DNA of 64,000 nucleotides from Mesorhizobium loti (GTDB lineage Bacteria; Pseudomonadota; Alphaproteobacteria; Rhizobiales; Rhizobiaceae): positions 62,001 to 126,000 of the forward strand of contig NZ_PJRO01000010.1 in the NCBI RefSeq assembly GCF_002858745.1, read 5' to 3'. Below are positions 8,844 through 51,346 of the stretch, piece after piece. Each line of letters starts with the position of its first letter. Positions within the stretch are counted from its first letter, which is position 1. Below the pieces are notes generated by a model. That model did not search any database, was not told where the DNA came from, and was given only the letters and a program-made list of their open reading frames with translations. The translations under genes and the position numbers were made by a program.

Positions 8844-9034
8844 CTCAATTACTCCCGCGTAACGATCCATGGTGTGCCGCATTATTGCGGCGAACACCTA
8901 GCCCTAGATGGGTGGCAAAACAATGCCCGCCTATGCCTTCTGCTCCGTTCCGACGAACAAAACATGACAACGGGCAGAAATCTGCCGTGATCGCGTAACG
9001 GTCTGAGATAAAAGGTGAAATCCCAATCCTGCGG

Positions 9035-9072
9035 CAAAATTGCGGCAGACTCTCATTGCTGCCGCAATTTTG
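9035..9072. terminator. Hairpin between ndvB and ndvA
   Basis: A perfect 14-bp inverted repeat, CAAAATTGCGGCAG at 9035-9048 and its complement at 9059-9072, with a 10-base loop. The stem ends in A/T runs on both sides, so it could work as a terminator on the minus strand just after ndvB (stop at 9121). If it works, ndvA needs its own promoter in 8844-9034. Confidence 0.6.
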
Positions 9073-9120
9073 TGCAACGGGAGGCCAACCCAAAGGCCTC
9101 CAGCACCATTCCCGCCCCTA

Positions 9121-15100: not shown

Positions 15101-17685
15101 TCACTGTTCTTCGGGATGATTGCGTTGACGATGTCGAATGTGGGCGCCATGAACAACGTCAGGATGAGAAGTCCCTGCCATTGGGCAGCCTGCGTGAAGG
15201 GCAGTAATGTCCAGCCGGCGATCGCCGCCATCACCCAGAAGATCGGAGTCAGTGAGCGGCGCAGATTGTCGATCATCTTCCAGCGCGACAACGCCGGAAC
15301 ACCCGAGCGCGGATCGAAGATGAAGCTCAAGAGCTGCCAGTCGCCGCGCGCCCAGCGATGGTTGCGCGAGGCGTCAACCCAATAACGTGTTGGATAATCC
15401 TCGACCAGCTCAACATCGGTGACGAGCGCAGAGCGTGCCAGGGAGCCTTCGAGCAGATCGTGGCTGAGAACGGTGTTGTCTTCGATGCGTCCCTTCAGCG
15501 CCGCCTCGAAGGCGTCGACATGATACAGGCCCTTGCCGGTGAAGGAGCCGTCGCCGAACACGTCCTGATAAAGATCCGAAACGGCAAAGACGTAGGGGTC
15601 GAGGCCACGATTGGCAGAGAAAACACGCTGAAAGAATGATGCCTCATCGCCCGTGGTAAGCGAAGGCGTGATGCGCGGTTGCATGATCGCGTAGCCGGCA
15701 GTAACCCGACGCTTGGTCGCATCATAATGCGGCTTGTTCATCGGGTGGCACATCTTGCCGATCAGTTTCGACACGGCATCGCGTGTCGTGCGCGTATCGG
15801 CGTCCAGCGTCATGACATGCACGACGTTTTCAGGCAGCGGCGTTTCCAGCGGCAGGAAGGTGGTATCCTTGTCGCCGCGCAGCAGCAGGTTCAGTTCATG
15901 CAGCTTGCCGCGCTTGCGCTCCCAGCCCATCCAGCGCCCTTGCGCCGGATTGTAGAGACGGCGGCGGTGCAGAAGGTAGAAACGCGGCGCGCCCTCGGTC
16001 GGGTAGCGTTGATTAAGTTCCGCGATCTGACTGCGGGCAAACTCCAGAATTTCCGTATCATTGGTGCTGATTTCCGATTTGCTGTCCGGCCAGTCCGAGA
16101 GCAGAGCGAAATACAGCTCACCCGACACATTGGCGAGGTGGTGCACTTCGATGTTGCGCACGTTCTCCTCGACATCGTCGCGCGAGCCAATCAGCGACGG
16201 TACAACGACGAGGGTTCGTGCCTCAGCCGGAATACCGTCCTTGTATTCATAGCCGACGAGGCGCGTGGGCTTCAGGAACAACAGGAATACGGTGTTGAAA
16301 AAGGCCAACGCGCCTTCGCTCGCCGGCACCGCGAACAGCACCAGCATCAGCGTTATGCCCCAGAGTGGCAAGCCGAGCGCGGCCAGCGCACTGCCGGACA
16401 ACCAAAGCAGAAGGGCCGTGAGCAGGAAGACGGGCAGCACAATGCCCAGCCAGCCGGTCTTGCGGAAACCACGCAGAAAACTACGTGCCAGGCTCGGCGA
16501 ATAGCCGATCGCTTTCTCGAGTTCAGGCCGGCGGGACCCGACAAGGAAGAATCCGATATCCGTGGTATCGGCAGCATCTGTCGCGTCACCGGCCGCTTGC
16601 CTTGCCGCACCCGCCATATCAGTCGCCTGTTCGGCGACATGGTATTCGGACTGCTTCGACCGTTTGGCCAGATCCTCGATCTCGGTGCGGTACTGATCGC
16701 GCGACGGGAAATCGAGTTCGCTGAAATTGGTGCGTTCACGCAGCAGTGCATCGATGCGGCTGACACCTTCGAACCAGATCGTCCAGTCGACGTCGTTGAT
16801 GAGGCGCAGGCCGCGAATGATGTTGCCGGTAGTGACGTTGCCGCTCGATAAGGTCTGATGCTCTGCAATGGTGATCTTTTCGGCGTCGGTGCCGGACTTC
16901 TCCAGCTCGGCTTCCAGCCATTCGAGTGCCCTGCCCGCGTTTTGCGAGCCGTCGCGCAAGCGATAGAGAAGTTGCGTGGCAAATGAAGTGTCGGCTGCCT
17001 GGGCCTGGTATTTGTCCAGGATTGCCTGCCGGTCGGCACTGTCGCCGGCAGCCAGCACGCGGTCGGCCACATCGTTGGCGATGAGACGTAAGTCTCTCGA
17101 GCGGTTGACCCGAACGGCGAGCCGGCGCAGGTTCTCGATAAGCACGAAGCGCAGCAGCGACGGCAGCGCCCAGATCTCGCCGATCTTCATCGGTTCGACC
17201 GACTGGAACCCCTCGACGATCGCCTTGAACATCTGCGCCGAGACGGAACTGTCCGAATGCGCAACGTAGGCCCAAGCCACCGCCAGCGCGCGTGGCACGC
17301 TGACGCTTTCGGAGAGTTTCAGCGTAGGCAGTTGCTTGTAGAAACGGCGCGGCAGATCGCGCTTGATCTGGTAGATGGTCTCCTCGACCAGATAGTTGTT
17401 GTCGAGAAGCCACTGCGCGGCTGGCGTTACCGTCTCGCCTCTTGCCTGGGCGGCATTGGTCAGCTTGTAGACCTCGAGGATCTTCTTGGCGCTTTCGCGG
17501 ATCCGCTTCTGGAAGTCGAATGGCTGCAAGCCGGCAAGATCGGAAACGTCGCCTCTGGCGAGGCTTTCACCCAGCGCCCGCAACCTGTCTTCAGGCAGAA
17601 ACTGCGACCGGATCGGCTCTTCCGCTGCAGCAGGGAAACGCGCGGTGGCTGTCCGGATTTCGGCGGGGCTGGTCTGAATATTCAT
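9121..17685 (-). CDS. ndvB: Cyclic beta-1,2-glucan synthetase NdvB/ChvB
   Basis: A giant inner-membrane enzyme of 2854 residues, the normal size for the family. From the N-terminus: a soluble region, a first pair of membrane segments near 413-456, a GT84 glucosyltransferase domain with TLDADTRTTRDAV (about 626), further membrane segments near 810-970, a long central part, and a C-terminal GH94 phosphorylase domain with GGDWNDGMNRVG (about 2537) holding the general-acid Asp. The protein primes on itself, elongates beta-1,2-glucan from UDP-glucose, trims it and closes the ring. The ATG at 17685 is used; a TTG codon just before it also fits the frame. Very long open frames on the other strand are codon-bias shadows. 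Confidence 0.97.
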   Translation of the reverse strand: MNIQTSPAEIRTATARFPAAAEEPIRSQFLPEDRLRALGESLARGDVSDLAGLQPFDFQKRIRESAKKILEVYKLTNAAQARGETVTPAAQWLLDNNYLVEETIYQIKRDLPRRFYKQLPTLKLSESVSVPRALAVAWAYVAHSDSSVSAQMFKAIVEGFQSVEPMKIGEIWALPSLLRFVLIENLRRLAVRVNRSRDLRLIANDVADRVLAAGDSADRQAILDKYQAQAADTSFATQLLYRLRDGSQNAGRALEWLEAELEKSGTDAEKITIAEHQTLSSGNVTTGNIIRGLRLINDVDWTIWFEGVSRIDALLRERTNFSELDFPSRDQYRTEIEDLAKRSKQSEYHVAEQATDMAGAARQAAGDATDAADTTDIGFFLVGSRRPELEKAIGYSPSLARSFLRGFRKTGWLGIVLPVFLLTALLLWLSGSALAALGLPLWGITLMLVLFAVPASEGALAFFNTVFLLFLKPTRLVGYEYKDGIPAEARTLVVVPSLIGSRDDVEENVRNIEVHHLANVSGELYFALLSDWPDSKSEISTNDTEILEFARSQIAELNQRYPTEGAPRFYLLHRRRLYNPAQGRWMGWERKRGKLHELNLLLRGDKDTTFLPLETPLPENVVHVMTLDADTRTTRDAVSKLIGKMCHPMNKPHYDATKRRVTAGYAIMQPRITPSLTTGDEASFFQRVFSANRGLDPYVFAVSDLYQDVFGDGSFTGKGLYHVDAFEAALKGRIEDNTVLSHDLLEGSLARSALVTDVELVEDYPTRYWVDASRNHRWARGDWQLLSFIFDPRSGVPALSRWKMIDNLRRSLTPIFWVMAAIAGWTLLPFTQAAQWQGLLILTLFMAPTFDIVNAIIPKNSDATPRGHFSALVHDIAFGTAMVALKIVLMAHQAWMMGDAIIRTLYRLFVSRKNLLEWRTASQAHQGSGNDIGSYYSMMYGAVIIGAIGLAIPVLDDSTGAFVAFAFALFWIGSPAFAWLVSRSAETEDRLHLLPQDVHALRIAARRTWHYFENFVTAEQNHLPPDNFQENPKPIIATRTSPTNIGVYLLSVVSARDFGWISLSDAIARIDATMSTIERMERSRGHLYNWYETTTLNPLRPTYISAVDSGNLAGHLVTVAATCTEWAEAPSVHLHGDVEGVLDTVAVLNECLDELPDDRRQLRPLRQRLADRLDGMRRAVRTIKAQPEMASARTVNLTVLAGEIRKLAAAIHGEAKSTASDIIVDWAARLEATCEAHVQDAQADEKAVQAMRAKLLELHERTRRYAFEMEFGFLLRQDRKLLSIGYRVEERQLDEACYDLLASECRLTSLFAIAKGDLPTEHWFRLGRPIVEIGFRGALMSWSGSMFEYLMPPLVMKEPQGSILNQTSQLIIKRQIQYGRSKGVPWGISEAAYNARDREMNYQYTNFGVPGLGLKRGLAQNMVIAPYATILSAQFLPRESVANLKRLKEIGALGRHGYYDAVDFTPQRVPEGASCAVVQNYFAHHSGMSIAAIADAVFEGRLRDRFHSDPVIESAELLLQEKAPREIPADTVRTDAEEQAVADDTEAQTPDMRVVLDPAWALRATNLMSNGRYSVMVTATGSGYSRWGDLAVTRWQPDPTEDRLGSYIFLRDADTGDWWSATVEPKRAPGETAQAQFSDDKATFIKTVHSLRSEVECIVISEGNGEGRRVTLYNDGATDRHIEVTSFAELVLGQEAADYAHPAFSKMFIETEIAPNNNAIFATRRKRDAGEPDIAAVHFVTDPSGLARDGEAETDRRAFIGRGRTIANAAAFDPDARLEGHAGFTLDPVAALRRRVRVPANKKISLTFWTVTGANRNELDEAIARLDHAESFARQSMLAWTRSQVQTRHMGLSLTDASNVQKLARYLIYPDPFLRLPSDAIAPGLGRQSSLWPTSISGDFPIFAVRIGDVADLEIVAEALRFQEYMRARGMTADLVIVNEQASSYVQDLQQAIDALCENSRLRGNEFGSRQHIFAVRRDLMDETTYKTLLAVARVVLHTRNGTIFDQIERAETAAIQARDTLHPGGAAVLRDTIMPAPRKTAKKDEDKAPADGGGLDYWNGYGGFDGDGRHYVIRLTGERSTPQPWINVVSNEAFGFHTSAEGAGFTWSRNSRDYQLTPWSNDPVTNRPGEGIYIHDLGSGESYSPTAAMLRDPAMVYEAWHGQGFSTFRTRRGALSMDLTHVVDPADPVRISRLRIQNAGSAPVRLRVYAYAEWVLGSHRSKTAATILSQRDEATGALLAQNPYGLDFSDRVAFLASDREPQSFTADRQEFLGRDGSTATPQSVLAGVALSGRVEAGDDPCAALARDVDIPAGGDVTLLWLIGDAASAEEASTLVKTHRAKDFDERLAENERSWRGFLDTIQVETPDKALNAMVNHWLPYQALACRIRARSAFYQASGAFGFRDQLQDTLALLAHDPSLAREQILNAAQRQFPEGDVQHWWLPRTGAGVRTMISDDVVWLAHAVSRYVLVTGDKAILKEALPFIEGKPLAEGEHDSFFEPQVSKTSVPLYEHCARALDLAVQRTGTDGLPLILGGDWNDGMNRVGIGGKGESVWLGWFLLRTLTDFAPVAKAQGDAKRAKAWEAHAASLKRALENAAWDGEWYRRGSFDDGSPLGSRRSDECKIDSIAQSWSVLSGEGDPARSQTAMDQAIKHLVDDELKIVKLFTPPFSKTEKDPGYIKSYPPGVRENGGQYTHAATWFVIALAEMGRADEAYRCFSMLNPVNHALDDASAEHYRVEPYVVAADIYAGEGKGGRGGWTWYTGSAGWLYRAAVEGILGIEQRGNRVEITPKLPTDWEGYSAKLKIAGTEHSIRVVRAKAAKTISLEVDGAKVKGNAFDLKEGGSSEIIVKIPA

Positions 17686-17965
17686 CAAGCAATCCGTGCG
17701 GTGGGGACCGGTCGCGGCGCGTCCGTGTCGTCCCCGGTGTTCAACATCGATTTACAGGTGATTGATTGCATAGCAAAGCGGGTCGAACGAGCTTGTTCCG
17801 TCTTCCCGTCAAGATTAGCGGACGTTGCCTTGCCGACAACCGTGATACTCGTGCTCATGCTCACAACGGGAAGGAGCGAAAGGCAAGGATTCCGGCAATT
17901 TCGTGATGACGCAACCGCCGGGCCCGATATTTCGAGGCAGGTCCGATAACGCTTGGAGACAGCCT

Positions 17966-18541
17966 TTAATCGTTTTGGATAGCGATCAGGAAAAGTACCG
18001 CATGCGGCAGAGGACGGAGCGACAGCGTCTGCCCTGCGTTGGTGAGCCACAATGTATCGCGCACGCCAAGCGCGAGTGTCGACGATTCGCCGACCTGGAT
18101 GCTGCCGTCCTGGCAGAACACAACCGTGGTGCCCGCTTCAGTAATGAGGTCGAGCGGCTCGGAGAGCGACATGCGTTGCACGGCATGATGCGTGCGGCCG
18201 CGGCGGGTCATCACATTGAGATCGGTGATCGGCCCCGCAGGCAGGGACGCCTCGGTCGCAGCGTCGGCAGGAAAGAACAACGGTTCGGAGGTATGCGTCA
18301 GGTCGATCGGCTCACGGCCAGCGATAGAGAGCCGCATGCCTTCACCTTCGAGGATCGAAAGCGTGCGGTCGATGCCGGCAAAGACCGAAAATGGTCCGCC
18401 AACTTCGACACGCGCCATCGAGATGCGCCAGTCGAAATCATCAAGCCCGGCGCCCGCCGGCGAAACGACGATCTCAGTCGTCGTCCCGCCGCCGTTCTTC
18501 CACGGCATGGATCGATAGTCGCTGGCGCGAAGGATACGCAT
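17966..18541 (-). CDS. hutD: HutD-family protein
   Basis: A 191-residue cupin-like protein with the family opening MRILRASDYRSMPWKNGGGTT and a WRISMARV segment. It is the last gene of the hutI-H-G-U-D run and its start lies 4 bases past the hutU stop, so it is surely co-transcribed. HutD is not an enzyme of the pathway; work in Pseudomonas suggests it limits hut expression, perhaps by sensing a pathway intermediate. The longer open frame upstream of 18541 lies inside hutU and is not used. Confidence 0.9.
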   Translation of the reverse strand: MRILRASDYRSMPWKNGGGTTTEIVVSPAGAGLDDFDWRISMARVEVGGPFSVFAGIDRTLSILEGEGMRLSIAGREPIDLTHTSEPLFFPADAATEASLPAGPITDLNVMTRRGRTHHAVQRMSLSEPLDLITEAGTTVVFCQDGSIQVGESSTLALGVRDTLWLTNAGQTLSLRPLPHAVLFLIAIQND

Positions 18542-18545
18542 CGGC

Positions 18546-20222
18546 TTAGCCGAGAATGCCCGGCAGGTTGAGCTGATGCTCTTTCGCACACTCGATGGCG
18601 ATGTCGTAGCCGGCATCGGCATGACGCATGACGCCGGTTGCCGGGTCGTTCCACAACACACGCTCCAGACGGCGCGCCGCATCCTCGGTACCGTCGCAGA
18701 CGATAACCATGCCGGAATGCTGCGAGAAGCCCATGCCAACGCCGCCGCCATGGTGCAGCGACACCCAGGTCGCACCCGAGGCTGTGTTGAGCAGCGCGTT
18801 GAGCAGCGGCCAGTCGGAGACGGCGTCCGAACCGTCCTTCATCGCTTCCGTTTCGCGGTTCGGCGAAGCGACCGAGCCGGAATCGAGATGGTCACGACCG
18901 ATGACGACAGGCGCCTTCAGTTCGCCCTTGGCGACCATTTCGTTGAATGCGAGGCCGAGACGGTGGCGGTCGCCCAGGCCGACCCAACAGATGCGCGCCG
19001 GAAGACCCTGGAACTTGATGCGCTTCTGCGCCATGTCGAGCCAGTTGTGCAGGTGTTTGTTGTCGGGCAGCAGTTCCTTCACCTTGGCGTCGGTCTTGTA
19101 GATATCCTCAGGGTCGCCTGAAAGTGCCGCCCAACGGAACGGACCAATGCCGCGGCAGAACAGCGGGCGGATATAGGCCGGCACGAAGCCGGGGAAATCG
19201 AAGGCGTTCTCGACACCCTCTTCCAGCGCCATCTGACGAATGTTGTTGCCGTAGTCGACGGTCGGAACACCCATCTTGTGGAAGTCGAGCATCGCCCGGA
19301 CCTGAACGGCCATCGACTTCTTCGCTTCCTTGGCAACGGTCTTGGGAGCGCGTTCGCGCTTTTCTTCCCATTCAGCGACAGTCCAGCCCTGGGGCAGATA
19401 GCCATTGACCGGATCATGGGCAGAGGTCTGATCGGTGACGGCGTCCGGCTTCACGCCGCGGCGCACCAGTTCCGGGAAGACGTCGGCGGCGTTGCCGAGC
19501 AGTGCAACGGATATCGCCTTCTTTTCCTTGCAGGCCTTGTCGATGATGGCCAGCGCATCGTCGAGATCCTTGGCCTGCACATCGACATAACCGGTCTTCA
19601 GGCGCATCTCGATGCGTGAGGCCTGGCATTCGACGGCAAGACAGGCAGCGCCCGCCATGGTCGCGGCCAAGGGCTGGGCACCACCCATGCCGCCCAGGCC
19701 CGCGGTCAGGATCCATCGGCCGGACAGATCGCCATTGTAATGCTGTCGACCCATTTCGACGAAGGTCTCGTAGGTGCCCTGAACGATGCCCTGGGAGCCG
19801 ATATAGATCCAGGAGCCGGCCGTCATCTGGCCGTACATCATGAGGCCCTTCTTATCGAGGGCGTTGAAATGATCCCAGGTTGCCCAATGCGGCACGAGGT
19901 TGGAATTGGCGATCAGGACGCGCGGCGCATCCTTGTGCGTCTTGAACACGCCAACCGGCTTGCCGGACTGCACCAGCAGCGTCTCGTCTGCCTCCAGATT
20001 GCGCAGTGCGCTGACGATGCGGTCGAAGCTCTGCCAGTCGCGTGCCGCACGGCCGATACCGCCATAGACCACCAGCTCGCCCGGCTTTTCGGCAACGATG
20101 GGGTCAAGGTTGTTCATCAGCATGCGCAGCGGCGCTTCGGTCAGCCAGCTTTTGGCGGTCAACTCGGTGCCGGTGGCGGCGCGAATGGTGCGGGAATTGT
20201 CGATACGGGTGTGTTGGGTCAT
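18546..20222 (-). CDS. hutU: Urocanate hydratase
   Basis: A 558-residue urocanase, the second enzyme of histidine breakdown: urocanate plus water to 4-imidazolone-5-propionate, using tightly bound NAD. Family blocks are plain: [49 protein letters not shown] and the C-terminal [16 protein letters not shown]. Full family length. It starts 19 bases after the hutG stop and is followed closely by hutD. Confidence 0.97.
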
Positions 20223-36519: not shown

Positions 36520-39132
36520 CTAGGAATCGCCCTCGAGTACATCCTTCACAACGGTGGCGAGCTGTTTCAGCGAGAACGGCTTTGGCAGGAAACCGAACTG
36601 GGCGTCGGCAGGCAGGTTCTTGGCGAAGGCGTCCTCGGCATAACCCGACACGAACACGAATTTGATGGTCGGTTGGCGCTTTCGCAATTCGCCGAGCAGT
36701 GTCGGGCCGTCCATTTCGGGCATGACGACGTCCGAGACGACGATGTCGATCTTGCCTTCGAGTTCGTCGAATACCTCCAGCGCCTCGACGCCGGATGTCG
36801 CCTCGTGCACAGTGTAGCCGCGCGATTTGAGCGCACGCACGCCGCCCATGCGCACGGCGTCCTCGTCTTCGACCAAGAGGACGATGGCTGAGCCGGAGAG
36901 GTCCTTGGCATCGCCAGCCTTGGCTGCGTCGCCATTCTTGGCCGGTTCGGCCGCGACCATCTTGGTGTCGCCTGGTTTGCCTTCCGCCGCTTGCTTTACA
37001 GCCTCGGCTACATGGCGCGGCAGAAAGATGCGGAAGGTCGTACCCTTGCCGACTTCGGAATCGCAGAAGATGAAACCGCCGGTCTGTTTGATGATACCGT
37101 AAACCATCGACAAGCCCAGACCGGTGCCCTTGCCGACCTCCTTGGTGGTGAAGAAGGGTTCGAAGATCTTCTTCAGCACATCCGGGGCAATTCCCGAGCC
37201 GGTGTCCTCAACTTCGACGACGACATAATCGGCTGCAGGCAGCTCGCGATAGGAAAAGGCGGCGCATTCGTCGGCCGTGACGTTCTTGGTGCGTACGGTG
37301 AGATCGCCGCCTGAAGGCATGGCATCTCGGGCGTTGACGGCGAGGTTGACCACGACCTGTTCGAACTGACCGATATCGACCTTGACCGGCCAGAGATCGC
37401 GGCCATGATCGACCTTGAGCTTGACATTGTTGCCGACAAGGCGGGCGAGCAGCATGCGCAAGTCGGCCAGAACATCGGTAAGGTTGAGTACCTCAGGCCG
37501 CAAAGTCTGCTTGCGTGAGAAAGCCAGAAGCTGACGCACCAGCGATGCCGCCCGGTTGGCATTCTGCTTGATGTTCATGATGTCCGGGAACGACGGATCC
37601 GACGGGCGGTGGTTGGCCAGCAACAGGTCGGATGCCATGATGATTGCAGTCAGCACGTTGTTGAAGTCATGTGCTATGCCGCCAGCGAGCTGGCCCACGG
37701 CCTGCATCTTCTGGCTCTGAGCCATCTGGCCTTCCAACGCCTTCTGCTCGGTGGTTTCCACCGCATAGACGATGGCCGCCTCTTCGGCGCCGTCGCTGTC
37801 GGTACCGTCCGCTACAGCGTTGACGTAAAATCGGACATGACGCTCCTCGTTGTCGGGCAGGACCGTGTCGATCGGAGTAATGTCGGCCTGACGCTGATGT
37901 GCCTTTTCAAGCGCGGCAGCAAAGGATGGCCGGTCGCGTTCATGGATGACCGTATCGAGCCGCACCTTACGGTCGAGCGCATCACGGTCGACCGCAGGTG
38001 AGAACAACGACAGGAACGGCGCATTGGTGCGCAGGATGCGGCCTTCATGATCAACACCGGCGATTGCCATCGGTGTCGAATTGAAGAAGCGGGTGAAGCG
38101 GATTTCAGAAGCCCGCAATTCAGCGGAAGCATCCTCACCCTGGGTTCTGTTGAGCACGATGGTGCGACTTGGACCGTTCAGCCCATCGCGGCTCGCCGAA
38201 ACGCGATGCATGAAGCGCACTGGTAGTGCCTTGCCGGTCATGGTGGTGAGATCGAGATCGATCACCGCGTTGCGCGTGGTGCCGGGATCCGCGCGCACCG
38301 AGCGGATCAGCGCCATGCCGTCGCCGGCGACGATATCCGGCAGCGTAACCGCACCCGGCGTGAAATATGCCAGGTCGATCCCCAGCCATTCGGCCAAGGT
38401 CGCATTGATGTAGGTAACGCGACCGTCCTGATCAGCGGCGAAGAATCCCGCTGGCGCATGATCCAGATGGTCGATCGCCTGCTGGAGATCGAGGAAGAAA
38501 CGTTCCTGCTCGGCACGTTCGACCGAAATGTCGGCAAGCTGCCATGCCGACAGCGGTTGGCGCAGGCCCGGCACAGAGAAGGTACGCGCCCGCGTACGAT
38601 ACCAGCGCCCGCCGGGCTCGGCACCCGGCCGGACCGATTGCGCCAGTCGGAACTCGCCGTCACCTGCCTGTCCATCGCGCAAACCGGCGGAAAGGCGGTA
38701 AATGGTGCTGGTCGCTTCGGGAATGTCGGAAAGAAGCCCCTCCACCGTCTTGATGTCGGCGGCGGAAGTTGCGCCTGTCATGTCGGCATAGGCGCGGTTG
38801 GCGTAGATGACGCGATCCTTGGCATCCGTCACCAAAAGGCCCTGTGACATGGAGTCGACGAAGGCCTTGGAGAGTTCGTCGCTGGTTGAGCGCGGCGCGA
38901 TCTGCACGAAACCGATCGCCGTTGCGAACAGGAAGCCGACGCCGATCATCGCCAGGACGCCCAGCATGCCAAGCAGGAACGGATCGCCGAAACGTTCGCG
39001 GAAAATGCCGAAGATAACGGCAGCCACAGCCAGCACCACCATGAAGATGATGAGCCGCGTGACTGCGCCCGGCCGTGTACCCTGGTCGACGATCGGCATG
39101 GGATAAAACTCGCCGCCCGTTTCCTTGGCCAT
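36520..39132 (-). CDS. cckA: Cell-cycle hybrid histidine kinase CckA
   Basis: An 870-residue kinase: two N-terminal membrane segments (about 25-47 and 52-74), PAS-type sensor domains, a dimerisation/phosphoacceptor segment with [14 protein letters not shown] (His about 488), an ATPase domain with [16 protein letters not shown] and [14 protein letters not shown], and a C-terminal receiver with the phospho-Asp in [13 protein letters not shown] (about 799). In alphaproteobacteria CckA feeds phosphate through ChpT to CtrA and CpdR to control cell division. The ATG at 39132 follows a purine-rich AGCAGGGGG. ChpT and CtrA are not in the window. Confidence 0.93.
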
Positions 39133-39372
39133 GTGCCCCCTGCTCACCAATTCCAGCCACCGGCGCCCCGACTCGCCCGGTTGAATCATATTCTCCCTGC
39201 CCGGAAAAGGCCCTGCTGGCAAATGTGCGCCAAAAACGACGTTATCACGAGGCTTTACCGCAAGCCGCTCCGATGTGCCCTGTTCACAAAGCGTCAAACG
39301 CGCCTTGCGACAACCGGACACCGCCTTTAGTGTCGCCGGCGCTGGGGCCGGATCATTTTTTTGGGGATGTCT

Positions 39373-40104
39373 ATGCTGAGTTGGCTGGAAAGCATGGCAG
39401 GGCCGAATTATGCGCCTGCCATCCTGTGGACCTTCGCGGCCCTGGTCCTGCTCGTCATCCTTTTGGTCATCGTCAGGCTGATCCGCGGCCTGACCTTCGG
39501 CACCTATGTCGCCGGCGGCAAGAACCGCAAGACGCGCCTTGCCGTGATGGATGCCACCGCCGTCGACAGCCACCGCCGCCTGGTCCTTGTACGCCGCGAT
39601 GACATTGAACATCTCATCCTTATCGGCGGGCCGACGGACGTCGTGGTCGAGCGCGACATCCGCATGGTGCCATCGCGCCGCCCGGTCTTGACCGGCGAAG
39701 CCCAGCAACAACAGCAGCCGGCGCGCGCTGCCGGTGAACAGCGTCAACCACAGGCGGCTCCGGCACCTGCGCCACCGCGTCGCCCTGAACCGCCACGCCA
39801 GCAGGTTGCGCCCAGCGCGCCGACGCCACATCGCGAGCCGACCCTGCCGTTGTCTTCACCACCAAAGGTTCAACAACCCGCCGTGCAGGCCGCAGTCCGC
39901 CAGGAACCCGTCCGTGCCGAACCGCCATTTCGCGCACCGCCAGAGCTGATGGAAGATCCGCTCGATGACGCGTTGATGCACGAGCTCGAAGTTTCGCTGG
40001 AAGAGGATGACGTGCCGCCAGCGAAAACAAACGCAAAGGCACAACCGTCACTGGACGATGAAATGGCCAAGCTGCTCGGCGAGCTTTCCAGCCACAAGCG
40101 GTGA
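39373..40104 (+). CDS. FliO-like membrane protein with Pro/Gln-rich tail
   Basis: A 243-residue protein: one membrane segment at about residues 12-36 (ILWTFAALVLLVILLVIVRL), then a FliO-type small domain (RLAVMDATAVDSHRRLVLVRRDDIEHLILIGG) and a ~130-residue tail rich in Pro, Gln and Ala. FliO helps assemble the flagellar export gate, but no flagellar gene is nearby, so this may be a FliO-domain protein with another role. The ATG at 39373 has GGGGA 5 bases upstream; in-frame TTG 39361 and ATG 39367 are less likely. It diverges from cckA. Confidence 0.75.
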   Translation: MLSWLESMAGPNYAPAILWTFAALVLLVILLVIVRLIRGLTFGTYVAGGKNRKTRLAVMDATAVDSHRRLVLVRRDDIEHLILIGGPTDVVVERDIRMVPSRRPVLTGEAQQQQQPARAAGEQRQPQAAPAPAPPRRPEPPRQQVAPSAPTPHREPTLPLSSPPKVQQPAVQAAVRQEPVRAEPPFRAPPELMEDPLDDALMHELEVSLEEDDVPPAKTNAKAQPSLDDEMAKLLGELSSHKR

Positions 40105-44167: not shown

Positions 44168-44467
44168 TCAGTGGCCGATCATCCATTTCTTGCGCATTGA
44201 TGTCGGCTTGTTACCAATCTTGCACAGTGCGCAACCACAGCCGCTCAGATGTGCCTTCTTGACCACTTTCGGTTCCGTGCCGCTTTGCTCTGAACGCGCC
44301 AGTGCACGGCGCAGCTTGCCGTTCATCAGGCTCAGGCGAGGCGCTGCCACATCCCTGTTGCTCTGTTCCTTGCATTGTGGGCACGCACATGCCCTCAGCG
44401 CATCCTGCATCGGCACCCATTCCTCAAATGGTCCGCAATCGTCACAAACATAGTTGTAGAGCGGCAT
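44168..44467 (-). CDS. FmdB-type zinc-ribbon protein
   Basis: A 99-residue protein beginning MPLYNYVCDDCG, as FmdB proteins do, with two CxxC pairs (Cys8/11 and Cys29/32) that make a zinc ribbon, and an extra Cys cluster near the C-terminus (SGCGCALC). FmdB was named as a putative regulator of formamidase expression. Here it lies downstream of an AmiS/UreI channel and the formamidase gene, on the same strand and in the same order as in known fmd clusters. Confidence 0.87.
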   Translation of the reverse strand: MPLYNYVCDDCGPFEEWVPMQDALRACACPQCKEQSNRDVAAPRLSLMNGKLRRALARSEQSGTEPKVVKKAHLSGCGCALCKIGNKPTSMRKKWMIGH

Positions 44468-44569: not shown

Positions 44570-45082
44570 TCACAGCTTGCCGTCCAGCAGCAGGAAGCCC
44601 GGCAGCCAGCCAGTGACGATGCCAGCAAGCAGTGTCGCGATCGCAGTCGGCCGCAGGATCGGCCGCTGCAGCGCCAAAAGCAGGAAATACAGGAACCACA
44701 CCACGCCCCAGATGACCCAGTTGGATGCCATCCAGAAGTCGATCGACGTTTGGCCGTCTGAAAACCCCCGTGCCGCTACCGGAATGGTAGTGATGGCGAC
44801 GAACAGGCTGAACCAGCCGAGCCCTCGTCCGTCCACCTTCATCACCCTGTTGTAGGCCACCCAAAAATAGGTCGCCGAAAACAGGATCGTCAGCGCCGCG
44901 CCCTTGATGGACGCAGCATCGGCGCTGGGTCCAAACGCCCAGGCGAGCGATACGCAGAACGTCACGACACCGGAAACCACGTTGATAACAATGATTTCCA
45001 GGTTCTCGATTTTCCCGAGAAGCCACAGCCCGTTCAGGAAGAGAACGGCGCCGACATAAAGCAAAGCAAATCCGAGCAGCAT
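44570..45082 (-). CDS. AmiS/UreI-family amide or urea channel
   Basis: A 170-residue membrane protein with about six hydrophobic segments and the family blocks LGFALLYVGAVLFLNGLWLLG and WVAYNRVM. AmiS/UreI proteins let short-chain amides or urea cross the inner membrane. The ATG at 45082 has GGGAGGG 5 bases upstream; an ATG at 45136 lacks one. It lies between the formamidase and the FmdB gene, so formamide or a similar amide is the likely substrate. Confidence 0.88.
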   Translation of the reverse strand: MLLGFALLYVGAVLFLNGLWLLGKIENLEIIVINVVSGVVTFCVSLAWAFGPSADAASIKGAALTILFSATYFWVAYNRVMKVDGRGLGWFSLFVAITTIPVAARGFSDGQTSIDFWMASNWVIWGVVWFLYFLLLALQRPILRPTAIATLLAGIVTGWLPGFLLLDGKL

Positions 45083-45151
45083 GAAATTCCCTCCCAAAAG
45101 AGCGCCGGCCAGTACTGAGCCTGACCGTCGCTTCATTGTTGTGCAGCCTGA

Positions 45152-46378
45152 TCAGCTCGTCTTGGCTACGTCGGCCTTGAAGTCCTGCTTCTTCGGTCCG
45201 TGGGCGTTGGGATTGATGTCGAAGTCGAAGATCGCCGTCGGAATGGCCAAGGTGGCGCAAACGTTGGGAATATCGACGATGCCGGCGATGCGTCCTTCGA
45301 CAGGGGCAGTGCCCAGGATCATGTAGGCCTGTTCGCCGGAGTAGCCGAACTTCTTGAGGTACTCGATGGCGTTGAGGCAGGCCCTGCGATAGGCGACATG
45401 GGCGTCGAGATAGTATTGCTCGCCCGTATGCTCATCGACCGAGATGCCCTCGAAGATGAGATAGTCGTCAAAATGCGGATCGATCGGGCTTGGCTTGAAG
45501 ATCGGGTTGATGACGCCGTATTTCGCCATGCCACCCTTGATGACGTCGACGCTGATATCAACCCAGCCGGCCATTTCAATAGCGCCGCAGAAAGTGATTT
45601 CGCCGTCGCCCTGCGAGAAATGGATATCGCCCATCGAGAGTCCGCCGCCCTTTACATAGACTGGAAAGTAGACCTTCGAACCGCGCGACAGGTTCTTGAT
45701 GTCGCAGTTGCCACCATGCTCACGCGGCGGAACTGTGCGCCACGCCTCCGCCGCGGCCTTCCTCGCCGCGTCGCCCTTCAACTGCCCCATCAGCGCGGTA
45801 TCGGCATATGGCAGCGCTGCAAGTGGCGGCACACGGGTAGGATCGGTCGCCACCAGCTCGGCCTCACGCCTGTTGGCTTCCGCAAGCAGCTTGTGGTCCG
45901 GCAGGCAACCGATCAGGCCAGGATGGATGATACCGGGATAACGCACGCCCGGAATGTGGCGCGACGTCGTGTAGATGCCATGGAAATCCCAGCAGGATTT
46001 GCTGGCTTCGGGGTAATGCTCGGTCAAGAAGCCGCCGCCGTTTTCTTTGGCGAACAACCCGTTGAAGCCCCATTCGGAGTCAGGCTTCGCGCCGAGGTCA
46101 AGGATGTCGACAACCAACAGATCGCCGGGTTCCGCGCCGTCGACGCCGAACGGGCCGCTAAGGTAGTGAACGCGCGTCAGGTCGACGTCGCGGACGTCAT
46201 TGGCACTGTTGTTGTTGCCGATCTGGCCTCCCGTCCAGTCGTGGCACTCCACGCGATAAGTGTGTCCTGGCTTGAGATGATCCACCATCGGAATGTCCGG
46301 ATGCCACCGGTTATGCGTCTTGATGGCGTGATCTTCTGGCGCTTTGTTCAGGTCGACTGAGAATACTGTCTGTGGCAT
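45152..46378 (-). CDS. fmdA: Formamidase
   Basis: A 408-residue FmdA/AmdA-family amidohydrolase that splits formamide to formate and ammonia. Visible family features: MPQTVFSVDLNK start, ECHDWTGGQIGNNNSA, HYLSGPFGVDGAEPGDLLVVD, and GDIHFSQGDGEITFCGAIE. Length equals that of the known bacterial enzyme. The ATG at 46378 follows GAGGAGGA; the open frame further upstream crosses the promoter region. It heads a minus-strand fmdA-amiS-fmdB operon, and a two-component regulator gene diverges from it. Confidence 0.94.
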   Translation of the reverse strand: MPQTVFSVDLNKAPEDHAIKTHNRWHPDIPMVDHLKPGHTYRVECHDWTGGQIGNNNSANDVRDVDLTRVHYLSGPFGVDGAEPGDLLVVDILDLGAKPDSEWGFNGLFAKENGGGFLTEHYPEASKSCWDFHGIYTTSRHIPGVRYPGIIHPGLIGCLPDHKLLAEANRREAELVATDPTRVPPLAALPYADTALMGQLKGDAARKAAAEAWRTVPPREHGGNCDIKNLSRGSKVYFPVYVKGGGLSMGDIHFSQGDGEITFCGAIEMAGWVDISVDVIKGGMAKYGVINPIFKPSPIDPHFDDYLIFEGISVDEHTGEQYYLDAHVAYRRACLNAIEYLKKFGYSGEQAYMILGTAPVEGRIAGIVDIPNVCATLAIPTAIFDFDINPNAHGPKKQDFKADVAKTS

Positions 46379-46520
46379 GCGGCTGTTCCTCCTCAATGCC
46401 AGCGTGCAAGAGGGTGGCTTGCGCGCCGTCCTCGTCCTTGCACCGGGCTGCGCGACGCCGCCCGGTATCGCCGTGCAATGCCAAGCTAGGTGCGTCATGT
46501 AATCGCCATGCATCGGAATG

Positions 46521-46553
46521 CCGCCCGCTTTGTAATTTTTTGTAACCGGGCGG
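46521..46553. promoter_or_regulatory. Phased TTTGTAA direct repeat inside an inverted repeat, fmdA/response-regulator intergenic region
   Basis: TTTGTAA occurs at 46529-46535 and again at 46539-46545, a 10-bp step, which is one helical turn and the usual arrangement for tandem binding of OmpR/PhoB-type regulators. The pair is enclosed by CCGCCCG (46521-46527) and its complement CGGGCGG (46547-46553). It lies about 150 bases before fmdA and 200 bases before the divergent OmpR-type gene. Binding by that regulator is inferred. Confidence 0.5.
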
Positions 46554-46742: not shown

Positions 46743-47480
46743 ATGTCAGTGGCCGAACCAAGATCGCGCATTCTCATTGTCGATGACGATCATCGGCTGT
46801 GCAGTTTTCTGGAAAAATTCCTCACGAGCGAAGGTTACGCCATCGTCAGCGCCCATGACGGGCGTGCGATGCGGCGCGCCCTTGCCGACGAAGCGTTCGA
46901 TCTTGTCATCCTCGATCTCGGCTTTCCTGTCGGCGAGGACGGCGTGACCCTGGCGCGCAGCATGCGCCCACAATACGACCTGCCGCTGATCATGCTGTCG
47001 GGCAAGAACACCACAATCGACAAGGTGGTCTGTCTCGAATTGGGAGCCGACGACTACATTACAAAGCCTTTCGAGCCGCGCGAGCTCCTGGCGCGCATAC
47101 GGACGGTATTGAGGCGCTTTGCCAAGGCCATCAACCTGCCCGAACCAGCGGAGATGGATCGCTCAGCCGCTGTCTGTTTCGACGGCTGGCGGCTCGACCC
47201 GACGCGCTACAAGCTGTCGTCGCCTGACGGCGAAAATGTACGACTTACCAGTCAGGAGTTCCAGATCCTGTCGGCACTCGTCGAACGGCGCGGCCGCATC
47301 CTGTCGCGCGAGCAGATCCTGGACATCGTCGCCAATCGCAACTGGACGCCCTATGACCGTAGCATCGACGTTCTGATCGGCAAGATACGCCGTAAATTAA
47401 GAGACAATGCGCGTGACACGCAGTTCATCAAGACCATTCGCGGCGTCGGCTATATGTTCGCCACTCAGGGCCGAGACTGA
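46743..47480 (+). CDS. OmpR-family response regulator
   Basis: A 245-residue two-domain regulator: receiver domain with acidic pocket VDDD (residues 13-16), phospho-Asp58 in VILDLGFPVGEDG and Lys108 in YITKPF, then a winged-helix DNA-binding domain ending in FIKTIRGVGYMFA. The loop after Asp58 is one residue longer than the usual DLMLPG form. The ATG at 46743 gives a standard N-terminus. It diverges from formamidase and converges, with an 84-base overlap, on the receiver-kinase gene, so it probably belongs to the same signalling system. Confidence 0.9.
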   Translation: MSVAEPRSRILIVDDDHRLCSFLEKFLTSEGYAIVSAHDGRAMRRALADEAFDLVILDLGFPVGEDGVTLARSMRPQYDLPLIMLSGKNTTIDKVVCLELGADDYITKPFEPRELLARIRTVLRRFAKAINLPEPAEMDRSAAVCFDGWRLDPTRYKLSSPDGENVRLTSQEFQILSALVERRGRILSREQILDIVANRNWTPYDRSIDVLIGKIRRKLRDNARDTQFIKTIRGVGYMFATQGRD

Positions 47481-48665
47481 GGCACGCGGTAGATAGAGGT
47501 TGATCCGGGTGCCTTCGTCCGGCTTGCTGGAGATGCCAAGGCGCCCGCCCGACTGCCGCACGAATCCATCGACCATCGGCAGGCCCAGGCCATTGCCCTT
47601 GCCCGCAGGTTTGGTGCTGAAGAGTGGTTCCAGCGCCCTGCGGCGTACCGCTACCGGCATTCCATGCCCGGTATCGATGACAGAAATGACGACATAGTGA
47701 CCGGGCAACAGGCCCGACGCGACCCGTGCGTCGTCCGGCCGGACGACAAAATTGCAAGCCTCGAACCGGAGCGTGCCGCCGTCAGGCATCGCGTCGCGCG
47801 CGTTGAGCGCGAGGTTGAGCAGGCTGGTTTCCATCTGCGCCGGGTGAACCTCGATTTCATGCAAATCATCCGCAAGCGCGAGCAAGAGGCTGATCTTGTC
47901 GCCCAGCGTACGGCGCAAGACACGCATCAGGTCCGGCAGCACTGCGTGCAAATCGACTCGGACCGTATCGCCTCCTTCCTGGCGGCCGAAATTGAGCAGG
48001 CGCGTCGTCAGGTCCGTACCCGCCTTTACCGCCCCCAGCGCATCGTCGACCATCTGCGCCAGCTCGGGTTCGGTTCGTACATGCTCCTGCAGCCAGCGCA
48101 GATTGCCGAGCAGGACCGCCAGGATGTTGTTGAAGTCGTGCGCGATACCGCCGGCCAGTTGTCCCATCGTCTCGATGCGCTGCATCTGCCCGAGTCGCTC
48201 AGCGACCAGGCGTTTTTCCTCCATCAGGCGGGTGCGCTCGAAGCAGCGCTCCAACGTCGCCAACAGGTCGGCGCTATGGAATGGCTTGCACAGATAGTCA
48301 TAGGCGCCAGCCTGCAACGCCTCCACAGCCGTTTCGACCGAGGCATAGGCGGTTACCATCAGGCAGATGAGATCGGGGCTTTGCCGGCGAAACGCCCGGA
48401 CCAGCTCGACCCCATTGCCCACGCCTAACCGTATGTCGACAAGGGCAATCGCCGGCTGGTGCAGCGCCAACGCGCCTTGGGCCGACAACGGATCATGCGC
48501 GACGATCGCCTGATAGCCTTCAAGTTCAAGTAATCCGGCGAGGCTCGCGGCAAAGTCCTCATCGTCGTCGACAATAAGGACACGCTTCTTCTCAACCGAC
48601 TCAGTTCCGTGCGGGATGATATCGTCGCCGATGAAATCGGTCTGCAGGTCGGTCTGGTCTGTCAT
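47397..48665 (-). CDS. Receiver domain-histidine kinase protein
   Basis: A 422-residue protein with the receiver in front: acidic pocket near VDDDED (residues 32-37), phospho-Asp77 in ALVDIRLG and Lys127 in YLCKPF. A short coiled linker leads to a kinase core with [16 protein letters not shown] (His176), NARDAMPDGG, DTGHGMP and GKGNGLGLPMVDGF. There are no membrane segments or sensor domains, so it must take its signal by phosphotransfer or contact. Its ATG overlaps the stop of the permease-kinase gene (4 bases), so the two are co-translated. The last 27 residues, beyond the kinase fold, are encoded antisense to the OmpR-type gene. Confidence 0.9.
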   Translation of the reverse strand: MTDQTDLQTDFIGDDIIPHGTESVEKKRVLIVDDDEDFAASLAGLLELEGYQAIVAHDPLSAQGALALHQPAIALVDIRLGVGNGVELVRAFRRQSPDLICLMVTAYASVETAVEALQAGAYDYLCKPFHSADLLATLERCFERTRLMEEKRLVAERLGQMQRIETMGQLAGGIAHDFNNILAVLLGNLRWLQEHVRTEPELAQMVDDALGAVKAGTDLTTRLLNFGRQEGGDTVRVDLHAVLPDLMRVLRRTLGDKISLLLALADDLHEIEVHPAQMETSLLNLALNARDAMPDGGTLRFEACNFVVRPDDARVASGLLPGHYVVISVIDTGHGMPVAVRRRALEPLFSTKPAGKGNGLGLPMVDGFVRQSGGRLGISSKPDEGTRINLYLPRASVSALSGEHIADAANGLDELRVTRIVS

Positions 48666-51346
48666 GACGAACCAGCTCCCGTCCGCGGCAACACGATCGA
48701 CACACGCGTGCCGGAGCCTTGTTCGCTGTCGATCAGGACCGAGCCGCCATGCTGCTCAACGATGCGCTTGACCAGCGGCATCCCCAGTCCAACGCCAAAT
48801 GCCTTTGTGCTGAACAGCGGTTCGAACACCCGTGCCACCGTTTCGCGCGACATGCCTGCACCATTGTCGGCGACGCAGATGATGGCATTTTCGCCCTCGC
48901 AGCGGGTGGAGACGACGATCGCCGCGTCATCCACCGCGTGCCCTTCGCAGGCCTGGAGGGCATTGGCCAGAACGTTGGAAAAAGCCTGCCGCAGCCGCTC
49001 GCCATCGGCCGATATCCTGCATCCAGCGGCGAGCTGGAGCTTTATCGGCCGCGCGGCGTCCTGTTCGGCGACATGTTGGGCTACCCACCGGTCGATCAGG
49101 ATCGGCGTCACGATCAAGGCGTGCTTGCGTGAGAAATCGAGCAGGTCCTCGATGATCCGCACGCAACGCCAAGCATTGCGCTGCAACCGTTGCAGCTCGG
49201 AGAGCACTGGTTCGTCGGCCTTCTTCAGCGAGCGAAACAAGACGTCGGCTGATGTCACCAAGGTGCCCAGCGGATTGCGCAGCTCGTGGCTGACTGTTGC
49301 CGTGATCTGGCCGATGGCGGCCAGGCGTTCGTTGCTCGCCAGGTCCCTCTGGGTCTGACGCAGTTTTTCCAGCGACGCGACCAAGTCTCGTTCGGCAAGT
49401 TCGCGACTCTCCTGTGACAGCACGATCCACCAGGCGCCGATGCCCAGCAGGGGCAGCAGAGCGAGGAAGACACGCAAAAGCAGCTGGCCGCTTGCCAGAT
49501 GGGGTTGTTCCGATCCCGGCTCGATCAGCCGATAGGTGAGAAGAAACACGCCGCCGGCGACCACCGCCAGGGCAAACAGCACACCCGCCACCTTGAGCAG
49601 GCGCTGCCCCATGCGGGGAGCGATCTTGTCGCGCATATGCGGCAGCGCCCGGCCAAAATAGCGCGTGCGCGAGGTCTCCAGCGCGCCTCCCGGCGACTTG
49701 CACACATCGTGGCAATGCGAATCCAGACTGCAGCACAACGAGCAGATCGGCTGCTCATAGAAGGTGCAGTGGACCATGTCGGAGCGTTCATAGGTGACGC
49801 CGCAGATGGCGCACAAATTGCTGTCCAGCCTCGTCGCAGGCAACTCGACGGGCTGGCGCGCCAGATAATATCGCCCTTTGGTCGCGACGCCGATTGCAAC
49901 TGCACAGCCAAGCGCGGTGACAAAGGCAATTGGCGCGGCATAGGCCTGCACCATGACGCCGAAAATGCCGGAGAAACACAGAAAAGCAACGAACGACGCC
50001 ATGGCCATCGAGCCGCAGCCGACAGGGTTGAAGTTATAGAGATAGGCACGCTTGAATTCGGGAAAAGCGGGGCTGACCCCAAGCGGCTTGAGGATGGCGA
50101 GGTCAGCGAAGATCGAGCCGATCCACGCGGCTGCGATGATCGAGTAGACCGCCAGCACCAGCTCGAGCGTCTGGAAGATGCCGAGCAGCATCAACAGCAG
50201 CGAGATCAGGATGTTGAATACCAGCCATACGACCCGACCAGGGTGATAGTGGGTGACGCGCGAGAAGAAATTGGACCAGGCCAACGAACCGGCATAGGCG
50301 TTGGTGACGTTGATCTTGACCTGCGAAATCAGCACGAATACCGCTGCGAGGGCGAGCACAACGCGCGGATCGGGGCTCACATATTCATATGCCTTGATGT
50401 ACATGTGAATTGGTTCAAGTGCTGTCGACCGCGACAAGCCGGCCTGGATTGCGAGCACCGCCAACAGGCTGCCACAGAGAATCTTGAACCCGCCGACGAC
50501 GATCCAGCCCGGGCCGGCAGCAATCACGGCCGCCCACCAGCGGAAACGGTTCTCGCGCGTCTTGTCAGGCAGAAAGCGCAGATAGTCGACCTGCTCGCCA
50601 ATCTGGATGGACAACGCGCACAGAACGCCAACGGCCGAGCCAAATGCAAGGAAGTTGAACCCCTCGCCTGTCATATCGCTGCCGACGAAAGCCGCCCACT
50701 CGTCGAGCGTATCGGGATGGGCAAGCAGGATATAGGCGAATGGTGCCAGATGCATGGCGATCCAGATCGGCTGCGACAGAAGCTGCAGCTTGCTGATCAG
50801 CGTCACGCCCATGAAGGTGATCGGGATGATGACAACGGAAGAAATGACATATCCCAGCACGAGCGGCACATCGGCAAACAGATTGAGCGCCTGCGCCATG
50901 ATCACCCCTTCGAGGGCGAAAAAGATGAAGGTGAATGTCGCGTAGATCAGCGAGGTGATCGTGGATCCGATGTAACCAAAGCCGGCGCCGCGTGTCAGCA
51001 GATCCATGTCGATGTTGTGACGGCTTGAATAATAGGCGATCGGCAGGCTTGTCACGAAAACAAACAGGCATGTCACGAGGATCGCCGGAAAGGCGTTGGC
51101 GAAGCCGTAGCTGAGCGTAATCGCACCGCCGATAGCCTCAAGGGCAAGAAACGAAATGCCGCCCAACGCAGTGTTGGCGATGACAAATGGCGACCACCGG
51201 CGAAACGACCGGGCTGCGTAGCGGAGCGAATAGTCTTCCAGCGTCTCGTTGGCGATCCAGGAATGGTAGGATCGCAGGGCTGGCAACTGCGGCGTTTCCA
51301 TCACGTTCGGCACGCATGCGCGATGGCCCGATACAGCGACCGGCAC
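48662..51346 (-). CDS. NCS1-type permease fused to a Cys/His-rich module and histidine kinase
   Basis: An 894-residue protein in three parts. Residues ~40-490 match the NCS1 cytosine/purine/hydantoin transporter family, with about 12 membrane segments (for example FVIANTALGGISFLALEAIGG and ALSIQIGEQVDYLRFLP). Residues 512-549 hold eight Cys and three His (CAIC, HC, CSLCC, HCHDVC), like a zinc or redox module. Two more membrane segments (about 585-605, 620-643) lead to a kinase core with phosphoacceptor His687 in TVSHELRNPLG, then DNGAGM and GVGLGMPLV. There is no receiver domain; the co-translated next gene supplies one. Start: GTG at 51346 with AGGAGGAG 9-10 bases upstream; an ATG at 51301 is the alternative. 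Architecture parallels CbrA, which has an SLC5 transporter part. Confidence 0.9.
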   Translation of the reverse strand: MPVAVSGHRACVPNVMETPQLPALRSYHSWIANETLEDYSLRYAARSFRRWSPFVIANTALGGISFLALEAIGGAITLSYGFANAFPAILVTCLFVFVTSLPIAYYSSRHNIDMDLLTRGAGFGYIGSTITSLIYATFTFIFFALEGVIMAQALNLFADVPLVLGYVISSVVIIPITFMGVTLISKLQLLSQPIWIAMHLAPFAYILLAHPDTLDEWAAFVGSDMTGEGFNFLAFGSAVGVLCALSIQIGEQVDYLRFLPDKTRENRFRWWAAVIAAGPGWIVVGGFKILCGSLLAVLAIQAGLSRSTALEPIHMYIKAYEYVSPDPRVVLALAAVFVLISQVKINVTNAYAGSLAWSNFFSRVTHYHPGRVVWLVFNILISLLLMLLGIFQTLELVLAVYSIIAAAWIGSIFADLAILKPLGVSPAFPEFKRAYLYNFNPVGCGSMAMASFVAFLCFSGIFGVMVQAYAAPIAFVTALGCAVAIGVATKGRYYLARQPVELPATRLDSNLCAICGVTYERSDMVHCTFYEQPICSLCCSLDSHCHDVCKSPGGALETSRTRYFGRALPHMRDKIAPRMGQRLLKVAGVLFALAVVAGGVFLLTYRLIEPGSEQPHLASGQLLLRVFLALLPLLGIGAWWIVLSQESRELAERDLVASLEKLRQTQRDLASNERLAAIGQITATVSHELRNPLGTLVTSADVLFRSLKKADEPVLSELQRLQRNAWRCVRIIEDLLDFSRKHALIVTPILIDRWVAQHVAEQDAARPIKLQLAAGCRISADGERLRQAFSNVLANALQACEGHAVDDAAIVVSTRCEGENAIICVADNGAGMSRETVARVFEPLFSTKAFGVGLGMPLVKRIVEQHGGSVLIDSEQGSGTRVSIVLPRTGAGSS

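Follow-up and report, generated by a model that had tools for sequence, protein, structure and literature searches.

Short amides control aliphatic amidase genes locally through AmiC/AmiR, a soluble ligand-binding pair, and transporter-type sensor kinases are few in the papers examined (CbrA, CrbS, RpuS and Ks-Amt5). The SLC5/STAC kinases CbrA, CrbS and RpuS have a transporter-fold membrane domain connected to a histidine kinase, which controls genes needed to use a small nutrient (excerpts of PMC13022988, PMC5715377 and PMC9100948). Their link is a STAC four-helix bundle, and their context is histidine, acetate or pyruvate. K196 of CbrA fills the Na2 site, and its SLC5 domain is reported to transport histidine (PMC13022988). 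Ks-Amt5 of Kuenenia, a trimer with the Amt fold, is a nutrient permease turned kinase sensor for a nitrogen compound, ammonium, and in that conversion its transport function was lost (PMC5764959). Here we analyze a 64,000-nucleotide stretch of Mesorhizobium loti DNA (contig NZ_PJRO01000010.1, positions 62,001 to 126,000; hereafter the window) with a gene at 48662-51346 in which an NCS1-fold permease and a histidine kinase share one open frame. We consider it likely that in this sensor histidine kinase a permease of a distinct urea/short-amide clade serves as the input domain, working by the mechanism proposed below; our best reading is that a former urea/amide permease has turned sensor, in parallel to CbrA and Ks-Amt5.

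The gene lies on the minus strand as a single, intact open frame of 894 residues counted from a GTG codon. Conservation favors the ATG at 51301 (METPQ...), which would give 879 amino acids, as the start over the upstream GTG; residues are numbered here on the 894-residue protein. The order of domains, all on the same strand, is an NCS1-fold permease core (49862-51241; residues about 36-495; placed with AlphaFold2, Foldseek and VIA), an eight-cysteine module with the pattern C-x2-C-x11-C-x7-C-x2-CC-x5-C-x3-C (49697-49813; residues 512-549), two further membrane/signaling helices leading into the kinase (49388-49618; residues about 577-608 and 617-653 in the AlphaFold2 model), a HisKA dimerization/phospho-acceptor domain (49121-49312; residues 679-742; Pfam E 9.2e-14) and a HATPase_c catalytic domain (48680-49006; residues 781-889; Pfam E 5.4e-23). 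The kinase has the make-up of a HisKA sensor kinase, with an H-box (SHELRNPL, 686-693) in HisKA and an N-box (791-799), G1 (827-832), F-box (841-848) and G2 (851-856) in HATPase_c, and the Pfam scan found no receiver domain in the window protein. A preliminary description of this DNA had proposed an NCS1-type permease and a histidine kinase with normal boxes and no receiver in one frame, which structure, profile comparison and Pfam bear out; it had missed the cysteine module and the two extra helices. Pfam reported no domain between permease and kinase in the window protein, the existence of a Pfam STAC model being unchecked. The protein differs from the SLC5/STAC kinases in its membrane module, apparently in its link to the kinase (the cysteine module plus two helices) and, as described below, in its amide/urea neighborhood.

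Three lines of evidence concur that the membrane half has the NCS1 fold: structure comparison, profile-profile alignment and a stand-alone sister recognized by Pfam. The AlphaFold2 model of the sensor region, built from 56 sequences, has a pLDDT of 84.5 and a pTM of 0.87. Foldseek against the PDB ranked NCS1 proteins first (Mhp1 2jln, E 5.9e-10; CodB 7qoa, E 5.8e-9; next family, 2.7e-6), and a second structure comparison gave Z scores of 33.6 for CodB and 26.2-29.5 for Mhp1, with the next entry at 23.5. In hhalign, comparison with four NCS1 proteins returned a probability of 97.5 (E 6.7e-12, 411 columns) and comparison with nine SSS proteins a probability of 0.4 (E 0.15), which led us to reject an SLC5 origin of the membrane module and agrees with the earlier distinction from CbrA-type sensors. 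The family also shares with Mhp1 and CodB an aligned D-x-x-R-[FY] segment and an Asn-rich TM8. A stand-alone sister permease from Klebsiella, 42% identical to the window permease, scores 38.1 bits with PF02133, the Pfam NCS1 family (cut-off 23.5); a stand-alone Arthrobacter permease falls below that cut-off. Other searches speak against the assignment. PF02133 had no match at E ≤ 1 in the window protein and none at E ≤ 0.01 in any of 47 fused members. Searching the PDB with family sequence profiles (E ≤ 10) likewise returned weak zinc-finger matches and no NCS1 chain.

To what extent the fused form is still a transporter is suggested by a single site in TM1 (51137-51151; residues 66-70), the cleanest difference between fused and stand-alone forms. 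The window protein reads F-L-A-L-E there, and all 77 fused rows of our comparison set have F66, L/M/C69 and E70, whereas the 13 stand-alone permeases have Y66, D69 and F/Q70 (Y-L-A-D-F/Q), without exception; Glu is thus present in 77/77 and Asp in 0/77 fused rows, and Asp in 13/13 stand-alone rows. Among these 77 rows is L062, a frame of 689 amino acids that stops short of the kinase; the set leaves out five short-tailed rows (L017, L072, L073, L085 and L086, with L085 counted as stand-alone) and five KINLTN carriers (L067, L069, L084, L092 and L093), which also have the TM1 FLALE, the TM8 lysine and the eight-cysteine pattern. Rows L004 and L172, with frames taken from the wrong strand, and the partial row L173 were left out of alignments A5 and A6, and the stand-alone permeases compared do not include the matches H78, H79 and H81. 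Fused and stand-alone forms have in common Glu146 (TM3; 50909-50911), Asp254, Arg257, Lys344 (TM8; 50315-50317), Asn346 and Asn349, but because the rows of this set, like those of earlier sets (some also with Cys), were picked with KIN expressions, Lys344 and its neighbors (once a Cys) are invariant partly by construction. In a set of 53 distinct rows gathered by profile or BLAST only, all 53 retain F66, a non-acidic residue at 69 and E70. The loss of Asp and gain of Glu in TM1 suggest that the fused form would act chiefly as a receptor and would transport little or nothing.

The shared residues could instead fit a true transceptor, in which the permease half still imports the amide and its flux is what the kinase measures, an arrangement proposed for CbrA, whose SLC5 domain is described as a histidine transporter (PMC13022988). 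We regard this as a serious but rather unlikely alternative. The TM1 Asp of the stand-alone permeases is absent from every fused row examined, separate uptake genes (AmiS or Urt) often lie near the sensor, a stand-alone paralogue stands beside the sensor in two records, and Ks-Amt5 offers a precedent for loss of transport (PMC5764959). The preliminary description had put forward either a transporter-derived sensor or a transporter whose flux is measured; our analysis supports the first.

The ligand class of this receptor is suggested by its gene neighborhood. When 84,980 species genomes were scanned with a degenerate pattern, at least 581 permease relatives came up, of which the best 80 loci were kept. 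Across these 80 loci the neighbors include FmdA (55), UrtA (53), UrtB (52), a LuxR-type regulator (53), FmdB (40), AmiE (23), AmiS (12) and AmiF (10); in the fetched DNA, an amidase-type gene (FmdA, AmiE, AmiF or AmiS) occurs in 58 loci, the Urt ABC genes in 53, and either in 67. As a control, we searched 58 genomes of the class, five of which carry the sensor, for the formamidase family PF03069. Eleven matched at E ≤ 1e-20 and four at E < 1e-150, and all four of the latter carry the sensor (P 1.2e-5, with the E < 1e-150 line set after the list was inspected); adding G067, which has a near-full-length match (E 1.5e-85) and no sensor, gives P 5.8e-5, and all 11 genomes give P 3.5e-3. In three of these four genomes a single contig carries both sensor and formamidase, no more than about 8 kb apart.

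The neighborhoods of the stand-alone sisters point the same way. Eleven of 16 are near urease, formamidase or aliphatic amidase genes, a count to be read in light of the fact that several are near-copies and thus not independent. Urease genes stand beside six (Klebsiella and four Acinetobacter plasmids), and formamidase and/or aliphatic amidase genes are near five (Moraxella, Arthrobacter U41, Tsukamurella, Methylovirgula and a Thermosynechococcus metagenome-assembled genome [MAG]). The Methylovirgula record has a stand-alone permease together with a fused sensor, and in Acinetobacter baumannii L163 a stand-alone permease is divergent beside a fused sensor. The permeases beside the Klebsiella and Acinetobacter urease genes (L123:7983-9590, L158:8956-10563, L164:8956-10563 and L193-L195) are currently annotated as cytosine permease, allantoin permease or hypothetical protein; they are probably urea/amide permeases. 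A fused copy on a Klebsiella plasmid (L122:13995-17375) is followed by a regulator-like frame and is divergent from urtABCDE and formamidase; this cluster is possibly the one named UTS in work on urinary-tract CG307. A possible further case comes from Mycobacterium smegmatis, where the number of msmeg_3402, a "putative cytosine permease," adjoins that of a formamidase (3403), and both are up in nitrogen starvation (data in PMC4222082).

The preliminary description had emphasized nucleobases, with amides as one option among several, and it is the amides that the neighborhoods and stand-alone sisters support, in the form of formamide, urea and other short-chain amides. In favor of nucleobase, hydantoin or allantoin sensing are the NCS1 fold itself and the names cytosine permease and allantoin permease given to sisters. 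However, the neighbors are mostly urea, formamide and short-amide genes, and the ring-binding site of Mhp1, which we take to include Trp117, Gln121 and Trp220 (residue numbers checked), is not conserved: Trp117 aligns with Phe/Leu, Gln121 with the conserved Glu146 and Trp220 with Val/Ile or, in another alignment, with the next residue (mostly Leu/Val/Ala/Ser/Cys), equivalences that come from distant profile alignments, the TM6 one shifting by one position between two of them. The residues aligned with the two tryptophans suit a small ligand. Lys344 aligns with Mhp1 Ser312, presumably a Na+ ligand, and a lysine at the aligned sodium site may recall K196 in the Na2 site of CbrA. Apart from these replaced residues, the window protein differs from Mhp1 and CodB in its fused kinase. 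Neighborhood and site residues together led us to reject a nucleobase ligand as the main reading; it is probably wrong, and we give it little credence.

Within the window, a REC-HisKA-HATPase kinase (47397-48665, minus strand; Pfam) begins within the end of the sensor gene, its start overlapping the sensor stop by four bases, so that the two are probably translationally coupled. An OmpR-type response regulator (46743-47480, plus strand; start MSVAEPR; Pfam) is convergent with the REC-kinase, their 3' ends overlapping by 84 bases (47397-47480). Divergent from the regulator gene is that for the formamidase FmdA (45152-46378, minus strand; start MPQTVF), assigned by the NCBIfam equivalog NF045496 (752 bits, cut-off 500) and by Pfam PF03069, and after it on the same strand come an AmiS/UreI-family amide/urea channel (44570-45136; PF02293, E 3.8e-56) and an FmdB-family zinc-ribbon protein (44168-44467; PF09723 and TIGR02605 over cut-off). 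The REC-kinase, the OmpR regulator, FmdA, AmiS and FmdB are all kept in the seven nearest loci (7/7, L016-L022).

Between fmdA and the regulator gene lies a candidate regulator site (46499-46545, plus strand), with a GTAA half-site at 46499 and a TGTAA-N5-TGTAA repeat at 46531-46545. The repeat, with its half-site 32-33 bases off, is present in all eight fmdA-regulator gaps (those of the window and L016-L022), which are hard to align outside it. Base shuffles of these eight intergenic regions, which are related to one another, gave a chance expectation of 0.002 per set, the shuffles keeping base content only. In the window the repeat has one match where 0.01 is expected; N6 spacing gave no match, and N5 is the correct spacing.

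For ligand, transport and signaling we infer the following scheme. Formamide, urea or another short amide would bind the permease pocket from outside, and the pocket would move as in a transport cycle. This movement would pass via the cysteine module and the two extra helices to the kinase, from which phosphate would reach the partner REC-kinase and/or, directly, the OmpR-type regulator, which in turn would bind the TGTAA repeats and switch on fmdA-amiS-fmdB. Such a system would be like AmiC/AmiR in placing aliphatic amidase-type genes under local control by short amides but unlike it in using a membrane kinase and a two-component regulator.

Several observations tell against an amide sensor of this kind, or at least limit it. 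No amide or Urt gene was seen in 13 of the 80 loci; eight of these are stretches of at most 13 kb, and the other five (L026, L027, L057, L061 and L088) are at least 16 kb. Of the five sensor genomes of the control, G111 gave no match to PF03069, and G093 carries its sensor and FmdA genes on separate contigs. Amide or urease genes were likewise not seen in five of the 16 sister neighborhoods examined (L124, L157, L163, L191 and L192). Genome-wide, TGTAA-N5-TGTAA has three exact matches, the same number as its reversed control, and is uninformative outside its conserved place; it therefore looks like a local site and not a large regulon. Finally, the stand-alone permeases form one clade (93/99) in a tree for which 40 of the 77 fused rows had been hand-picked, but the branches to the NCS1 outgroup are very long, and because the tree cannot be rooted safely it does not tell fusion from fission as the direction of change.

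The eight-cysteine module raises a different possibility, namely that the protein senses metal or redox state, with the module as its input and the permease as a membrane anchor. The full pattern is present in 77/77 rows of the fused-versus-stand-alone comparison set (total length 38 in 76) and in 52 of the 53 rows chosen without a motif filter, the remaining row being a fragment. Modeled by itself, the module has a pLDDT of 69.9 and no significant fold match; the weak matches are RING/PHD/FYVE-like (lowest Foldseek E 0.3, highest Z 3.7), and its predicted fold has a zinc-finger character, so that it may well be a zinc finger. We think it very unlikely that the module is the input, since the permease is strongly conserved and the stand-alone sisters sit with urease/amide genes. 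Moreover, among the 13 stand-alone permeases, seven already have a shorter CxxC...CxxC end, four (Arthrobacter, Tsukamurella) have lost it, and two (Methylovirgula and the Thermosynechococcus MAG) have the full form.

What recurs across genomes is the fused input module, followed by differing outputs. An output in the same frame is present in 73 of the 80 kept loci (70 with a kinase signature and three with GGDEF, two of these by motif and L032 by Pfam); the remaining seven comprise four cut by the DNA end, two whose frames end early (L017 and L062) and one stand-alone permease (L085). Pfam was run on the window protein and on 46 locus proteins out of 70 usable ones; it found HATPase_c in 44 of these 47, HisKA in 43, a receiver in 27, GGDEF in three and EAL in two, so that the same input stands ahead of HisKA kinases, hybrid kinases and outputs of the GGDEF/EAL type. 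A membrane module placed before differing outputs resembles a sensory input module. In Sulfurimonas L032, L040 and L061, the permease-cysteine module is followed not by a kinase but by a GGDEF or GGDEF-EAL (c-di-GMP) output, and no amide gene was found in the nearby DNA examined. A Hylemonella MAG (L081) has two fused sensor genes close together, at 8914-12375 and 15777-19277.

The sensor is not rare, its frequent database label being "ATP-binding protein." It occurs in 26 of 385 genomes of the class, 25 of these in frames of at least 899 codons, and a Klebsiella permease query matched 51 of 398 genomes of the phylum at E ≤ 1e-60, with at most three candidates scored per genome and each listed match in a frame that stays open for 894 codons or more. 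A plasmid collection held 520 matching records, of which 485 match over 80% or more of the full-length protein at a single place; by name, 340 of the 520 are Klebsiella and 77 Sinorhizobium. Two records labeled plasmids in that collection, NZ_CP104448.1 and CP125156.1, are chromosome-sized (4.1 and 5.4 Mb), and the plasmid counts may thus include chromosomes. In the genus group of the window the gene is present in two of 37 genomes; the only other carrier among those searched, G005 (L006 and L013), has a frame broken in the permease, through decay or sequencing error. This broken frame, and those of L017 and L062 that end before the kinase, are what could be said for an assembly error or frameshift having fused two separate genes, a reading that the recurrence of the same fusion across loci (73/80), long-frame class genomes (25/385) and plasmid-collection records (485) excludes for practical purposes.

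Elsewhere in the window, on the minus strand, are a 2855-amino acid GH94 protein (9121-17688; PF06165 and PF17167), which we take to be probably a cyclic beta-glucan synthase, and a PAS-HisKA-HATPase-REC hybrid kinase of 1103 amino acids (36520-39831).

Among the matches listed in a full-text search of open-licence papers, we found no description of an NCS1-kinase, in line with the earlier suggestion that the architecture may lack a published functional account. Two papers mention Urt/formamidase clusters, in Klebsiella CG307 and in Pseudomonas veronii (PMC13060141, PMC13209695), and the AmiC/AmiR gene names appear in the second of these; by term counts, "histidine kinase" is absent from the main text of both.

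More broadly, we lean towards a model in which these proteins make up an undescribed family of transporter-derived urea/short-amide receptors. An NCS1-type permease with a zinc finger-like tail would have been made a portable sensory module by exchange of the TM1 Asp for a neighboring Glu. In several phyla the module would then have been linked to kinases, hybrid kinases and c-di-GMP enzymes, and it would have spread as far as Klebsiella plasmids; its stand-alone sisters, in operons for urease and formamidase, would be urea/amide importers that have gone unnoticed. If this is true, NCS1 joins SLC5 and Amt as a sensor-forming transporter family; unlike Ks-Amt5, with its Amt fold, it would bring hundreds of relatives and several output domains. 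The protein would be a concrete candidate for bacterial sensing of external formamide or urea, and a likely function may be offered for the urease-adjacent permeases now named cytosine or allantoin permease. With sensor and stand-alone forms split at one site in TM1, the question of how a transporter becomes a receptor would be directly testable in this family.

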